Positions 2,076-36,666 of a DNA stretch of 42,054 nt are shown here, one piece after another. Source of the stretch: a virus; IMG/VR virus record IMGVR_UViG_3300042507_001474, positions 1 through 42,054 of that record, one strand, 5' to 3'. A model generated the notes under the pieces. The model saw only the letters and a list, made by a program, of their open reading frames with translations. It ran no database searches and was not told the origin of the DNA. The position numbers and the translations under genes are program-made. Positions within the stretch are counted from its first letter, which is position 1; every line of letters starts with the position of its first letter.

Positions 2076-3845
2076 ATGAAAGAACTTGTACAAGCATTCG
2101 AGCAATTAAAAACTCGAAACTCCGAGCGCGATAAGCGCATGCGCGAGGTTGCCTTGGTTCGTGCTGGTCAAGCAGACCAGGTATTCAAAGGCTTGTTCCC
2201 AGAGGGAACATGGTCACGACCAATCATTGCTAACCTCATTGACGTTGTAGCTCGTGATGTATCTGAGCAAGCTGGTGTTCTACCTACCATTACTGCTGCT
2301 GGCGATTCGTCATTAGACGATAACCAGCGTACCAAGGCTGACAAGAGAACAAAGATTGCTAACTACTACGTAGCATCCTCACGTCTAGGTACGGAACTAC
2401 TGCGTGGCGCAGACCAGTTAGGTACATACGGATTCTGTGTATTCCGTGTAGAACCTAACTTCAAAGAAAAAAGACCACACATCCATGTTGAAAACTCTAT
2501 GGGTGCGTATTATGACGTTGATAGATTTGGCGAAGTACAGGTTTATGCACGTTCTTACTATCGTAAAGCTGGAGATTTAGCAGCACATTTCCCAGAACAT
2601 GCAGATGCTATCTTGCAAACAGGTGCATTCTCACGTGGCGATACAAACCAACTACTAGAAGTAGTACGTTGGACTGATAAAAAGCAAACAGTTATGTTTA
2701 TTCCAGAACGTGGGGGAACCGTTCTTGCACAAACACCAAACAAAATCGGTCGTGTACCAGTTGCGATTGCTCAACGCCCTTCACTTGACGGCGAAGTTCG
2801 CGGGTCATTCGACGATGTTCTGCCAGTGTATGCAGCAAAAGCACGTCTTGCGTTGCTTACTATGGAGGCTGTTCAAAAATCTGTTGAAGCTCCTCTGGCT
2901 CTTCCCACCGATGTTACTCAACTATCTGTTGGTCCTGATAGTGTCATCCGTTCGAACAGTCCTGAAAAGATTCGTCGCATTAATCTTGACGTTCCTCAGT
3001 TTGCTTTCGCGGAGAACAATGTTTTAGCAGATGAAATGAAGCTAGGCACTCGCTTTCCTCAAGCTCGTGCTGGGCAATCAGAAGGTTCTATTGTTACAGG
3101 TCAAGGTGTTAAGGCACTTATGGCAGGTTTCGACTCACAGATTAAAATTATTCAGTCTGTACTTGGAGAAGCTATTGGTCAAGCTCTCTCAATCGCCTTC
3201 GCAACTGACCAAGCATATTTTAATGATGTCACTCGTGAGGTATCTGCCACAGCAAACGGCGTACCTTACAAGTTAAAGTACAAGCCAGCAGTTGATATCA
3301 ACGGTAACTACGGAGTTACAGTTGAATATGGACTAATGGCAGGGCTGGACCCTAACCGAGCCCTCGTCTGGGGACTACAGGCTCGTGGTGACAAGCTTAT
3401 TTCACGTGGCATGCTACGTAGAAACCTACCGATTTCGCTCAATGCTGGAGAAGAAGAGCGAGCAATCGACATTGAAGAGATGCGTGACTCACTTAAGGGT
3501 TCAATTGCATCACTTGCCCAAGCAATTCCTCAAATGGTAATGCAAGGTCAAGACCCAATGCAGATTGTTGAAAAGATGGCTGCAGTTATTGATGAACGTA
3601 AAAAAGGCACACCGCTAGAAGATGCGGTTGCTAAAGCGTTCAAGCCAGAACCAGCACCAAAGCAACCTGAAATGCAACCAGGAATGCCAGCAGAACCAGC
3701 ACCAGAAGAAATGGGTGGAGGAATGGGTGGCGAATTGCCACAAGCCCCACAAGGTAGACCAGCAATGCAAGAACTTCTTGCAGGTCTTACAGGTTCAGGC
3801 AGTCCAGTTCTATCAGGTCGCGTAACTCGTCAAATACCAGCATAA
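2076..3845 (+). CDS. Portal protein
   Basis: Ring protein at the capsid vertex through which DNA is packaged and ejected. The 589 residues begin 4 bases after the terminase stop, the usual terL-portal order. The N-terminal half has the alpha/beta character of phage portals (for example TELLRGADQLGTYGF followed by PHIHVENSMGAYYDVD). The C-terminal tail from about residue 520 is rich in Pro, Gln, Met and Gly and probably disordered. The call rests on position, length and these segments. No clip or stem element was mapped individually. Confidence 0.85.
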   Translation: MKELVQAFEQLKTRNSERDKRMREVALVRAGQADQVFKGLFPEGTWSRPIIANLIDVVARDVSEQAGVLPTITAAGDSSLDDNQRTKADKRTKIANYYVASSRLGTELLRGADQLGTYGFCVFRVEPNFKEKRPHIHVENSMGAYYDVDRFGEVQVYARSYYRKAGDLAAHFPEHADAILQTGAFSRGDTNQLLEVVRWTDKKQTVMFIPERGGTVLAQTPNKIGRVPVAIAQRPSLDGEVRGSFDDVLPVYAAKARLALLTMEAVQKSVEAPLALPTDVTQLSVGPDSVIRSNSPEKIRRINLDVPQFAFAENNVLADEMKLGTRFPQARAGQSEGSIVTGQGVKALMAGFDSQIKIIQSVLGEAIGQALSIAFATDQAYFNDVTREVSATANGVPYKLKYKPAVDINGNYGVTVEYGLMAGLDPNRALVWGLQARGDKLISRGMLRRNLPISLNAGEEERAIDIEEMRDSLKGSIASLAQAIPQMVMQGQDPMQIVEKMAAVIDERKKGTPLEDAVAKAFKPEPAPKQPEMQPGMPAEPAPEEMGGGMGGELPQAPQGRPAMQELLAGLTGSGSPVLSGRVTRQIPA

Positions 3846-26766: not shown

Positions 26767-26778
26767 GAGATAGAAAAG

Positions 26779-26809
26779 GAGGGGGACTTAATCGTCCCCC
26801 TCTTTTTTT
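26779..26809 (+). terminator. Rho-independent terminator of the late operon
   Basis: The 9-bp stem GAGGGGGAC (26779-26787) pairs with GTCCCCCTC (26794-26802) around a TTAATC loop and is followed by seven Ts. It ends the structural and lysis transcript. Confidence 0.9.
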
Positions 26810-26826
26810 ATTTCTCTTTTTACCAC

Positions 26827-26849
26827 GGCTTGCCATCAGGCAAGCCTTT
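26827..26849 (+). terminator. Second hairpin after the late operon
   Basis: A perfect 8-bp inverted repeat, GGCTTGCC (26827-26834) and GGCAAGCC (26839-26846), closes ATCA and is followed by TTT. It backs up the stronger terminator 20 bases upstream, or acts as an independent element. Confidence 0.6.
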
Positions 26850-26881
26850 CCCGCCCTCCACCCCTCAACCCTATCAGATTA

Positions 26882-26944: not shown

Positions 26945-27139
26945 ATGAATCAACTTCCTCCTCATCGGTCTTACAGTCAGCTTACCACGTGGCAATCCTG
27001 TCCTCAGAAATACTTCTTGAGTAAAGTAGCCATGGTTCCTGAGAAGCCAGCAGTCTATCTGGCTGCAGGGTCTGCAGTCCACAGCATGATTGAGTGGTTG
27101 AATCATGAGTTCTACAAGCAGCAGCAGGCGAATGATTGA
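26945..27139 (+). CDS. Cas4/RecB-like nuclease, N-terminal half
   Basis: 64 residues matching the start of PD-(D/E)XK nucleases of the Cas4/RecB class: SYSQLTTWQSCPQKYFLSK with C19, then LAAGSAVHSMIEWLN with G42 and H46 (motif I). The frame stops at TGA 27137-27139, before the acidic active-site residues, which appear 200 bases later in a separate gene (27337-28005). A zinc-ribbon gene starts 8 bases before this stop. Both halves keep their conserved residues, so I read it as a working split gene rather than debris. Assembly with the second half is inferred. Confidence 0.75.
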   Translation: MNQLPPHRSYSQLTTWQSCPQKYFLSKVAMVPEKPAVYLAAGSAVHSMIEWLNHEFYKQQQAND

Positions 27140-27350
27140 CCAACGTGGTATACCCAGTAATGAGTGTATCAATTGCGGTAGCAATGTCCAAGTAGTACGT
27201 GCTATATTTCAGGACTACGAACTTGTTATGTGGTTTACCGATAGCTTTTGCGGTACTTGTGGTTCTCCTATGACAACGCCTACACCAGTCGACCACCCCG
27301 ACTACGTGAAGCCAGAGCGACCAGAGGAAGAAGACGATGAGTTTAACTGA
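27132..27350 (+). CDS. Zinc-ribbon protein inserted within the split nuclease
   Basis: The frame is open from 27105, but the ATG at 27132, which overlaps the upstream stop by 8 bases, gives a compact 72-aa protein. Two pairs, CINC (about residues 12-15) and CGTC (about 40-43), form a zinc ribbon. The C terminus is Pro/Glu/Asp-rich (YVKPERPEEEDDEFN). It overlaps the start of the nuclease's second half by 14 bases. It could be a structural insert, a regulator or a third subunit of the nuclease. Confidence 0.7.
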   Translation: MIDQRGIPSNECINCGSNVQVVRAIFQDYELVMWFTDSFCGTCGSPMTTPTPVDHPDYVKPERPEEEDDEFN

Positions 27351-28005
27351 GAAGTGGCTAGAAGTATTTAATGATGAAGTAAAATCCATAGAGGAACAAT
27401 CAGGTATTCCATCGACGGAGTGGAAGACAGCTGGTCGCAAGACCACTGCTCGACCAGATGGAGAAGACCTATCGTTCTGGCAAAGCGATGGGCTCAAGCA
27501 GGTTGAGGCGTACCAGAAATGGTACGAGCAGTCTGGTTGGAAAATTGCCACAATGCCTGACGGTCGTCCTGGAATCGAGTGGTCAGCAGATGTACATTTC
27601 GGAGGTACACCTGTTCGATTTATTGTAGATGCCATCTATCAAGTAGGGGAAGACTTGGTAATCGTGGACTACAAGACTGGTTCCAGGACACCGTTCGGTG
27701 TAATCCAGAATGGCTTATATGCCAGCGGTATTGAAAAGATTTTTGGAATACGTCCTAAGTGGGGCGCATTCTTTATGACTCGCAAAGGCGAGCTTGATGA
27801 TTTGGTCGACCTATCCCACCTCAGTATAGATTACTACGAGCATGCATTTGCTTCTATGAATCATGGTGTACTCAACGGTTGGTTCCCAACATTTGTTGGA
27901 GAGAACTGTAGGATGTGTAGCTACATGGACAAGTGTCCAGCATGGGGCTCAAAAGATTTCCCATTACAAATACCAACAACAGGGAAAGAAAAGGAGAGAA
28001 AGTAG
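27337..28005 (+). CDS. Cas4/RecB-like nuclease, C-terminal half
   Basis: 222 residues with the catalytic core of PD-(D/E)XK nucleases: D98 (RFIVDAIY), D111 and K113 (LVIVDYKTGS) and motif IV Q124/Y128 (QNGLYA). C191, C194 and C200 (CRMCSYMDKC) match the C-terminal cysteine triad that, with one N-terminal cysteine, holds a 4Fe-4S cluster in Cas4/AddB enzymes. The fourth cysteine (C19) and the motif I histidine are in the separate N-terminal half. AGAGGAAG precedes the ATG. Likely role: DNA end processing in recombination or replication. Confidence 0.8.
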   Translation: MSLTEKWLEVFNDEVKSIEEQSGIPSTEWKTAGRKTTARPDGEDLSFWQSDGLKQVEAYQKWYEQSGWKIATMPDGRPGIEWSADVHFGGTPVRFIVDAIYQVGEDLVIVDYKTGSRTPFGVIQNGLYASGIEKIFGIRPKWGAFFMTRKGELDDLVDLSHLSIDYYEHAFASMNHGVLNGWFPTFVGENCRMCSYMDKCPAWGSKDFPLQIPTTGKEKERK

Positions 28006-28482
28006 ATGACTGAATCTATGTTCTCGTATACAGGTAAGTTGAATTCAACTGACCTATTCACCGTCCGAGGTAATAGCGTTAGTGAATTTAGAGCTAACCT
28101 AACCGCAGCAGTCGAAGCAATCGCTGAGGCTGTGCAACTACAAGCATCACTGTCTGGTCGTGTTGCAGCACCAGCAGGAAATGCATACACACCTAACGCT
28201 GAGCAAGCAATCCAGATGTTGCAGGATGCGGGTCTTAACCCACAGCCTGTAGTCGCTGGCACAACCCCACAATCAATTGAGGTTGTCAAAGATAAGTACG
28301 GTAATGAATGGACATATGGACATCCAGATGCTCCAGACCTACCAGACGGACGTGGCAAGTACGCCAAGAAGAAGGGCGTATCAAAAGCAGGCAAGGCTTA
28401 TGTTGGTTGGTTTGACCCAGCCAAGGGACCGAAGCCGTTCAAGCCAGGTGTTACTGAAGCCGAAACTATTTGGGCTAAGTAA
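28006..28482 (+). CDS. Hypothetical protein in the DNA module, 158 aa
   Basis: AAAGGAG precedes the ATG directly after the nuclease stop. The N-terminal 60 residues are mixed strand/helix (YTGKLNSTDLFTVRGNSVSE). Then comes a Pro/Ala linker and a basic, aromatic C-terminal part (GKYAKKKGVSKAGKAYVGWF). Its place between a nuclease and a RecA-like ATPase suggests a DNA-binding accessory role. An SSB-like function is possible, but the acidic tail typical of SSB is absent. Confidence 0.65.
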   Translation: MTESMFSYTGKLNSTDLFTVRGNSVSEFRANLTAAVEAIAEAVQLQASLSGRVAAPAGNAYTPNAEQAIQMLQDAGLNPQPVVAGTTPQSIEVVKDKYGNEWTYGHPDAPDLPDGRGKYAKKKGVSKAGKAYVGWFDPAKGPKPFKPGVTEAETIWAK

Positions 28483-28484
28483 TC

Positions 28485-29318
28485 ATGCGTAGCCTATTGC
28501 AAGTAGTGGGTGTCGAATCACCAGCTGGTATTCAGTTACCAGAAATCCTACCTCAACTCACCGCCAGTCAAGTTACTTTCCGTCAAGCGCAATTGCATTT
28601 GATTGCAGGTCAACCAGGCGGAGGTAAGACACTACTTGCATTATGGTACGCGATTACATCTAAGGTTCCATCGCTCTACATATCAGCAGACTCTGACTCT
28701 AGAACAATTGCAACTCGTGCAGGTGCAATCATTATGGATAAGGAAGTCGCTAACGTAGAGAAGTTGATGGATACAGATGCGAGTGTTCTCCTTGAGGATG
28801 CTCTTGCTGACGGCGCGAGTCATGTGCGATTCGCCTTCGACCCAGCACCTTCTCTTCAAGATATTGAAGAGGAGATAGAAGCGTGGATTGAATTGCATGG
28901 CTCCGCCCCAGCAGCAGTATATGTAGATAACTTAATGAACGTCGCTGCAGCCAGCGACAATGAGTGGACTGCATTGCGTGATGCAATGTCAGCCTTCCAC
29001 TACATGGCACGTGAGTATGAGTCAGCATTTATTGTGCTACACCATGTGTCTGAGAATGAACGTATGTCTAAGCCAAACTATCCAGCACCACGCAAAGCGT
29101 TGATGGGTAAGGTTGCTGCTCTACCTGAACTGGTATTGAGCGTAGCGTTAGACAGTGGGGCAAACGCTTATCGCGTTGCCGTTGTGAAGAACCGCCATGG
29201 TAAGGCTGACCCTAATGCAGAGGAGTATGTAACACTGGCAGCAGAAGCTAGCAAGATGGCTCTCTATAATTCCTCAGCGGAACTGTTCCGTCAAAGGACA
29301 TTAAGTCAGTGGCAGTAG
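28485..29318 (+). CDS. RecA/DnaB-like AAA ATPase
   Basis: 277 residues with Walker A GQPGGGKT at 42-49 and Walker B AAVYVDNL ending near residue 150 (D148). YISADSDSRTIATRAG and FIVLHHVSENER match the RecA-like core of phage helicase or recombinase ATPases. It probably acts as helicase or strand-exchange motor in replication or recombination, next to the split nuclease and primase genes. It lacks an obvious N-terminal DnaB domain, so an accessory RecA-fold NTPase is as likely as a full replicative helicase. Confidence 0.8.
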   Translation: MRSLLQVVGVESPAGIQLPEILPQLTASQVTFRQAQLHLIAGQPGGGKTLLALWYAITSKVPSLYISADSDSRTIATRAGAIIMDKEVANVEKLMDTDASVLLEDALADGASHVRFAFDPAPSLQDIEEEIEAWIELHGSAPAAVYVDNLMNVAAASDNEWTALRDAMSAFHYMAREYESAFIVLHHVSENERMSKPNYPAPRKALMGKVAALPELVLSVALDSGANAYRVAVVKNRHGKADPNAEEYVTLAAEASKMALYNSSAELFRQRTLSQWQ

Positions 29319-30889: not shown

Positions 30890-31219
30890 ATGAATCAGTC
30901 TGAGTTCCTTGAAGCAGTCTTTAATCATTACGGATTGACCTTGCCACTCGGCGGGGAGAAATCAATCTTGTGTCCTGTACATGATGACTCTCGTAAGTCT
31001 GCTTCGGTTAATTCAGACAAGGGTGTCTGGGTATGTTATGCATGTAACGCAAGTGGTTCTGGTATACAGATAATCATGAGTCGTGAAAAGCTAACATACC
31101 CAGAGGCTCGTTCATGGGCAGAGAAGAACATTGGCAAGGAGTCCAAGCAATCTGCACCATCACGTGGACGTAAGAAGTCAAGCGGACGTTGGACTCCACC
31201 TAGATTGAGAGTTGGCTGA
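30890..31219 (+). CDS. Primase zinc-finger half
   Basis: 109 residues with a CHC2-type zinc finger: C28, H31, C49 and C52 (ILCPVHDD; VWVCYACNASGSG). The helix EARSWAEKNIG follows, then a basic tail (SRGRKKSSGRW). In bacterial and phage primases this finger precedes a TOPRIM catalytic domain in one protein. Here the TOPRIM part is a separate gene 527 bases on (31746-32393), with a protease-like gene between. The finger recognises template DNA. Association of the halves is inferred. Confidence 0.8.
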   Translation: MNQSEFLEAVFNHYGLTLPLGGEKSILCPVHDDSRKSASVNSDKGVWVCYACNASGSGIQIIMSREKLTYPEARSWAEKNIGKESKQSAPSRGRKKSSGRWTPPRLRVG

Positions 31220-31749
31220 TGACAACAATCGTTGGTATTCAAAGCGACAACGGCTGCATGCTAGTGGCTGACTCACGTACTACCGCAGGGAATAGACCGT
31301 ACTCACATCCAACGGTTACTAAGATTAACAAGCGTGGCAAGTGGCTTATCGCTGGCGCGGGTGACGTGCAACCATGCGACGTGGTTCAACACGTGTGGAA
31401 ACCACCAGCTATCCCAGCCAACATTAAAGATGAATATCATTTCATGATTACAACTGTGGCTCCTAGCATTAGAGAATGCATCAAGGAGTCTGGCTATGTG
31501 CCAGACAAAGATGATGCCGATGCTGGGTTCGAATTACTACTGGCTGTTAACGGAACCATCTACCAAGTAGATGATTCCTACTCTGTATATCTGCGTGATG
31601 ATGGGCTGTATGGCATAGGGTCTGGTTCATCGTGGGCATTGGGCGCACTAGCAGTAGGTGCAACTTGGAAGCAAGCAATGCAGACGGCAGCAAAGAACGA
31701 TGTGTATACTGCTCCCCCATTCATAGTGCATAGGCAGGAAAAGAAATGA
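31219..31749 (+). CDS. HslV/proteasome-like Ntn hydrolase
   Basis: 176 residues. After removal of Met1, Thr becomes N-terminal (MTTIVG), the nucleophile of proteasome beta and HslV proteases. D18 (VADSRTT) falls at the position of catalytic D17, and K35 (TKINKRG) is one residue from the usual K33. GAGD and the later GIGSGSSWALGALAVG match the family core. The protein lies between the two primase halves, coupled by TGATG upstream and ATGA downstream. It may process phage or host proteins. No HslU-like partner is encoded. Confidence 0.75.
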   Translation: MTTIVGIQSDNGCMLVADSRTTAGNRPYSHPTVTKINKRGKWLIAGAGDVQPCDVVQHVWKPPAIPANIKDEYHFMITTVAPSIRECIKESGYVPDKDDADAGFELLLAVNGTIYQVDDSYSVYLRDDGLYGIGSGSSWALGALAVGATWKQAMQTAAKNDVYTAPPFIVHRQEKK

Positions 31750-35685: not shown

Positions 35686-36666
35686 TTAGATTCCTTTCGT
35701 GATTAGTTCAAGAGCCTTGCTCTTGATGCGGTCAGCTGAGCCAGTGATGATTCGTTCGGCTCGTGTTGCTTCTGACTTGTGGCTGTAGTGGTCAGCGTAT
35801 TCGACGATTGCTTGGAACGCACCGAATGCTGTGCCGTACAGTTCTTCTTGAGTACCAGTAGCACCGTTGTAGATTTGCTTGACTGCATCTCTTGATGCAA
35901 TCGCTGAGTTGTACTGACGGCGTTGACCTGTGGTCAGCATATTGTATGGTGCATTCTCTACTGCAGTTGGTAGCGAGAACATCTTCTTGAAGATGGCATC
36001 TACCTCAGCATCGGATACCTTCTCATTAATGAGACGGTTACCCACTGTCTCATACATCTGGATACCAGCGTATGTTACTGGGATAATCTTGCGGATATCT
36101 TCGATACGGAATTCCGCATTGGTTGTATGCTTCAACGTAAACGTTGCAGTCTTTGAGAAGATACCAGCAATCTGGTTGGTGCATCGTAAACGATTGATGC
36201 TTGGTGCAATCTGCAAAGCAGTTGAACCATCATGTGAAGTGCGAGCCACAAGGTAAGCCTTGTGTTCATCGCCCTGAATCTTCACACCTTCTGGCAGTTC
36301 GAGCACCATGTATACCTGTGCTCCACCTTTTACTTCACCAGCATATGCATATCTGGCATCGCCAGAATCAACTAGTGCATCCAGTGCAGAGAACATCTCT
36401 CCATTCTGGAACACCTTGTATCGACCGCCAACTGTACCTAGTACAGACTGACCGCCATCTTGATTGGTACGGATAGTTGCGAAAGTGTTAGGCACTTCGA
36501 TAGTGCTGACACCCTTATCGTTCAAGGCTAAAGCTTGAACGTCTGCTAGTGATACGTTCCAGTCAAGCCCTGCTTGACGTGCTGCATCTACTGCTGATGT
36601 TGCTGATACTTCTTCTCCGATAATGCTATAAGCATTACGGCGTGACTTGATTGTTAGTTGTGACAT
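35686..36666 (-). CDS. DUF932 phage/plasmid-like protein
   Basis: 326 residues with the order of the DUF932 family: an N-terminal SLADVQALAL part, then TVGGRYKVFQNGEMFSALDA, YLVARTSHDGSTALQIAPSI and LRCTNQIAG. Function of the family is unknown; members are common early genes of phages and plasmids, and a DNA-metabolism or anti-defence role has been suspected. It is the largest gene of the minus operon. Its leader (36667-36700) shares the AACCAACC...GAAAGGA pattern with other minus genes but lacks the 17-bp dyad. Confidence 0.8.
   Translation of the reverse strand: MSQLTIKSRRNAYSIIGEEVSATSAVDAARQAGLDWNVSLADVQALALNDKGVSTIEVPNTFATIRTNQDGGQSVLGTVGGRYKVFQNGEMFSALDALVDSGDARYAYAGEVKGGAQVYMVLELPEGVKIQGDEHKAYLVARTSHDGSTALQIAPSINRLRCTNQIAGIFSKTATFTLKHTTNAEFRIEDIRKIIPVTYAGIQMYETVGNRLINEKVSDAEVDAIFKKMFSLPTAVENAPYNMLTTGQRRQYNSAIASRDAVKQIYNGATGTQEELYGTAFGAFQAIVEYADHYSHKSEATRAERIITGSADRIKSKALELITKGI

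Follow-up and report, generated by a model that had tools for sequence, protein, structure and literature searches.

Two adjoining phage genes that probably specify one Cas4-like exonuclease, with changeable genes at their junction

What does a phage genome encode when the two ends of one nuclease lie in separate reading frames with a third gene between them? The window studied here, the whole 42,054-base stretch of an uncultured virus record from IMG/VR, raises this question. Two of its ORFs, N and C, resemble the N-terminal and C-terminal parts of a Cas4/RecB-like nuclease and flank a zinc-ribbon gene, Z (Table 1). A sequence-only reading of this DNA, whose positions for the three ORFs were confirmed, had suggested a three-part nuclease. 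The comparisons described below favor another interpretation, to which we assign a probability of about 0.8: judging from its relatives, the window would encode a stable two-subunit Cas4-like exonuclease (PF12705, PD-(D/E)XK), the fission product of a single-chain phage gene. The gene block ahead of the nuclease genes is closed by a strong terminator-like hairpin, and a new block then opens with N. This second block extends through the helicase gene and includes, farther along, genes for a RusA-like resolvase and a DNA primase. An ORF similar in size to the one that follows C in the window is also found 3' of C in the E7-type (see below), L230 and L235 loci.

Table 1. Features of the nuclease gene block in the window.
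Feature	Position	Strand	Details	Basis
Terminator-like hairpin with T run	26767..26814	+	20-pair stem	pattern scan; consensus match only
N, nuclease N-terminal subunit	26945..27139	+	64 aa; motif I H46 and cluster-type C19	ORF, family matches
Z, zinc-ribbon protein	27105..27350 or 27132..27350	+	81 aa (ATG 27105) or 72 aa (ATG 27132)	ORF
AGAGGAAG, ribosome-binding-like site for C	27323..27330	+	within 3' end of Z	duplex energy
C, nuclease C-terminal subunit	27337..28005	+	222 aa; E81, D98, D111-x-K113, Q124, Y128, C191, C194, C200	ORF, family matches
Protein with no assigned function	28006..28482	+	158 aa; immediately 3' of C	ORF
DnaB-like helicase	28485..29318	+	same gene block as N-Z-C	PHROG 243, E 1.2e-73

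N and C match consecutive, non-overlapping stretches of one phage exonuclease family. On the Pfam PF12705 model (length 247), N covers positions 3-50 and C positions 90-247; on PHROG 1870 (length 313), the corresponding intervals are 11-69 and 74-306. These matches bear out the proposal that a Cas4/RecB-like nuclease is present in two polypeptides, and the residues singled out in the sequence-only reading are real family motifs, correctly numbered. Conservation was counted over 123 distinct split enzymes and 77 intact ones. The motif I histidine (H46 of N) is present in 123/123 and 77/77, respectively, and C19 of N in all 123 split enzymes. Across the combined set, D98, D111, K113 and Q124 of C are invariant save in one sequence (Val at D111), C191, C194 and C200 of C are invariant together with C19 of N, and the glutamate of the PGIEW motif (E81) is among the positions that are invariant or nearly so. 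Neither C (27 bits) nor the intact enzyme of contig L235 (35.5 bits) reaches the cut-off of 65 for the CRISPR Cas4 model TIGR00372.

In Cas4 and AddB the cluster is bound by a single cysteine close to the N-terminus plus three C-terminal ones (PMC3466216). PF12705 exonucleases combine this pattern with a single polypeptide; here the one N-terminal and three C-terminal cysteines are found by taking both chains jointly only, and the coding sequence consists of two ORFs with an insert. From the four cysteines it may be inferred that an Fe-S cluster site is present, probably for 4Fe-4S, although by analogy with the DUF3799 structure 3L0A the site may bind zinc in place of iron (PMC3466216). An archaeal protein became insoluble upon mutation of each of its cluster cysteines (PMC3466216).

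The search for the same arrangement in related phages that the sequence-only reading had suggested was productive: N, Z and C occur together in 154 of the 158 loci fetched near the window (some contigs having been fetched twice), the remaining four being cut by contig ends, and the relative frames of the three genes are identical in 85/85 distinct regions. Such recurrence places the arrangement far beyond chance. In the window clade, median pairwise dN/dS values (Nei-Gojobori script, overlaps excluded) are 0.018 (N), 0.058 (Z) and 0.102 (C); in the E7-type clade they are 0.052 (N) and 0.095 (C). The strongest purifying selection of the three genes is thus on N. No relatives were found in 84,980 prokaryote genomes with either query.

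One might ascribe the interrupted gene to a sequencing or assembly error, to decay or to an intron, considering that the window comes from an uncultured record and that a damaged N does exist in one relative, L068. A degraded or absent half in relatives had been named beforehand as an observation that would count against the split; L068 is the one case seen, and 85 distinct relatives keep the N-Z-C frames. In L068 (positions 1700-1965), N is without its 5' part, including C19, intergenic sequence joining N at approximately codon 20, with Z and C intact; we explain this by a deletion or by chimeric assembly. Against these explanations stand the agreement of the 85 distinct sequences, the presence of the split in cultured phage genomes as well, the low dN/dS values and the conserved coding of Z itself; as for an intron, a search of the window gap for group I or II introns gave no Rfam match. 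Error, decay and intron, to which we give hardly any credence, are refuted by these comparative data. The earlier argument against decay, that the conserved residues survive, extends to essentially all 123 split enzymes.

It could be imagined, instead, that C is the sole enzyme, or that N has been repurposed, the conserved residues of N being a relic. The D, D-x-K and Q motifs all lie on C, and C unaided also matches nucleases. Yet dN/dS is lowest in N, H46 and C19 have no exception among the split enzymes, and N and C adjoin in every lineage seen, all of which makes this explanation very unlikely. As in "genes in pieces", the two ORFs are complementary parts of one intact homologue and both are conserved.

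Relatives in which the gene is whole, or is split with other contents in the gap, bear on the role of Z. Actinophage homologues are single chains of approximately 260-285 aa, annotated as Cas4 or RecB-like exonucleases, and in the 60 records listed as a spread over 1,247 matching phage records, the sequences corresponding to N and C form a single aligned segment. The nuclease gene is also intact in the freshwater IMG/VR contigs L228, L229 and L231-L242, with a Z homologue encoded on the other strand some 200 bases upstream. Other freshwater lineages are broken at the same position as the window, with gap contents that vary. The clade that includes E7 and F5, two cultured phages of 'Ca. Planktophila' (OX376640.1 and OX376641.1, deposited unannotated as 'Caudovirales sp. 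ct2KA10'), has an empty gap, its halves overlapping by 8-20 bases, and the gap is likewise empty in further contigs whose halves overlap by 4 bases (ATGA). Elsewhere the gap holds a 64-aa membrane-like ORF (L230), a different ORF of 73 aa (L324), a Lys-rich ORF of 106-111 aa (L307 and L313), a 48-aa zinc-finger-like ORF (L330) or two ORFs of 107 and 218 aa (L279, L280 and L282). The 218-aa insert of L279 (positions 2361-3014) has a weak match to DUF7574, below the cut-off of that model, and a predicted coiled-coil-like stretch. No significant match to a homing endonuclease or other nuclease was obtained among the gap inserts, and E7-type phages carry no insert. The comparison of these lineages shows the split to be old and, as far as their sequences tell, independent of Z.

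According to the three-part proposal, Z would be an indispensable third component, bridging the halves or regulating them. In the window clade Z is single-copy and always lies between N and C, in fixed frames and under purifying selection, which speaks for such a role. However, the same split is found with an empty gap or with unrelated ORFs, and in the majority of relatives searched Z homologues, some of them weak matches, are encoded elsewhere in the genome (E7-like, L307, L279, L325 and L342), including relatives with an intact nuclease (L235 and L231). The proposal is therefore not supported, and we consider it very unlikely. Most likely, Z is a conserved, independent phage gene that relocated to the junction in a single lineage and is not needed by the enzyme. 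Z had no match among the named phages of the phage collection. Its similarity to the Lar restriction alleviation family (TIGR03655; 18.3 bits, E 0.002) does not reach the cut-off of 39.6 and provides a lead only; like Z, Lar family proteins are small, with two CxxC-type knuckles.

How are the two chains made? Overlaps of 8 and 14 bases between Z and its neighbors had been reported, and they are correct for the starts then chosen; for Z, however, position 27105 is a more likely start than 27132. The triplet at 27105 is A/GTG in 83/85 distinct relatives and the sole nearby start in 38 of these 83. The N codon that overlaps it is CAT or CGT in 83/85, whereas H46 is mostly encoded by CAC. From this conservation, Z probably begins at 27105, overlapping N by 35 nt. 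In the window clade, C has an ATG start, mostly a 14-base overlap, and a purine-rich site before it whose median duplex energy is -5.0 kcal/mol (-5.8 kcal/mol in the window), compared with a random-site median of -1.8. Overlaps of this sort suit the coupled translation of separate proteins, and the coupling envisaged in the sequence-only reading is likely.

The overlapping ORFs, with N, Z and C successively displaced by +1 in all 85 distinct regions, might also be taken to indicate programmed frameshifting, two +1 shifts yielding a fused N-Z-C protein. But, depending on the lineage, C is offset from N by 0, +1 or +2 in frame, and some inserts approach 1 kb, which renders a general frameshift fusion unlikely. 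In addition, C retains its ATG and ribosome-binding-like site, and the N stop codons differ across relatives, including TGA, TAA and TAG. Overall, frameshifting appears very unlikely.

The position of the break was placed on a predicted structure of the intact relative from L235 (mean pLDDT 90.3). In this model helix 41-60 carries the motif I histidine and is followed by helix 71-86, and the split point maps to the intervening loop, residues 61-70. Foldseek comparison of the model with the PDB retrieved ACE1 (an Argonaute-associated Cas4-family protein), AdnA, Dna2, EXO5, Cas4 and AddAB, and sequence profiles concur with these matches. When C of the window was modelled alone, pLDDT was 50-56 in the cysteine region and structure matches were poorer. 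These predictions suggest that N is required for the cysteine region of C, although the low confidence of lone C may stem from the alignment.

The two-subunit reading can be put together as follows. Fission of a single-chain phage nuclease gene would have occurred at one surface loop. N would contribute one cysteine ligand of the metal along with motif I (H46), C would contribute the other catalytic residues and three cysteines, and both chains would be produced from one mRNA by way of overlapping, coupled starts. Association of the chains would then complete the active site and the four-cysteine metal site, the latter probably holding a 4Fe-4S cluster; both association and cluster are deduced from the residues each chain carries. 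The enzyme would probably act in DNA-end resection within the phage replication/recombination module, nuclease activity and polarity being presumed. Z, as a separate conserved gene, would have come to lie at the junction in the same way as the unrelated genes seen in other lineages. More tentatively, one could envision an entire clade of abundant freshwater actinophages having a heterodimeric Cas4-type nuclease with an inter-chain metal cluster, in which the fission point serves as a standing docking site for small phage genes and so couples translation of the nuclease to changeable cargo; we regard this broader picture as possible but somewhat doubtful.

A maximum-likelihood tree built from 45 representatives places all split enzymes, along with three intact ones, in one freshwater group. 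The zinc-ribbon form probably has a single origin. There are two changes between intact and split states in the best tree, but the AU test does not reject monophyly of the split enzymes (p 0.20), so that one or two fissions are possible. Several long branches meet in the tree, which makes this history as a whole unsure.

Among the closest known counterparts is the actinophage 'Cas4 family exonuclease' (PF12705/PHROG 1870), with hosts in Mycobacterium, Gordonia, Rhodococcus, Propionibacterium and Streptomyces. Its catalytic and cysteine motifs occur in the same order as here, and the intact gene is also close to one for a DnaB-like helicase, but it is a single polypeptide, with about 30% identity. 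A pfam12705 clade comprising phages of Mycobacterium and Propionibacterium is described in a phylogenomic study of Cas4, from which the word "split" is absent (PMC5704561). The exonuclease is likewise absent from the main text of the paper on E7 and F5 (PMC10202952). The nuclease domains of Cas4, AddB, AdnA, Dna2, EXO5 and ACE1 have the predicted fold and motif order seen here; unlike here, each lies on one chain.

Phage genes in pieces have been described for other enzymes: nrdA of Aeh1 (mobE insertion), topoisomerase genes 39/60 of T4 (mobA insertion) and gene 43 of Aeromonas phages 25 and 44RR (PMC2988022). Aeh1 NrdA is functional as two pieces, and the pieces of the phage 25 DNA polymerase (gp43) co-purify (PMC2988022). 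In these cases too a single-chain enzyme is encoded by two neighboring ORFs, with an insert in some relatives. There, it is a homing endonuclease or a spacer that marks the break (PMC2988022); the present enzyme is a different one, no homing endonuclease was recognised at its junction, and the gap contains several kinds of small non-nuclease gene, or nothing. No split Cas4-type nuclease turned up in literature searches of an open-access library, and one with varied non-homing cargo seems to be new.

The locus would represent a naturally occurring and long-standing division of an enzyme in which the cysteine cluster is considered essential to structural integrity, allowing one to test directly whether such a cluster forms between two chains. 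It also offers a ready-made split nuclease, and an instance of a phage gene junction that has repeatedly accepted different small genes without evident homing endonucleases. The cultured lytic phages E7 and F5, which have the simplest form, make the two-subunit reading testable.

Some minor features of the window may be mentioned. Upstream of N, positions 26827-26877 contain a GGCTTGCC-ATCA-GGCAAGCC hairpin together with CCCTCAACCCTATCA, and this stretch is found again ahead of N in many window-clade loci. It is possibly a leader, promoter or origin element; the folding z-score is just -1.6. A repeated GGCGTGTC box has a single site in the window, as chance predicts. The window also encodes a phage HslV-like peptidase family protein (PHROG 1040) and a DUF932 protein, at 31219-31749 and 35686-36666 (-), respectively.
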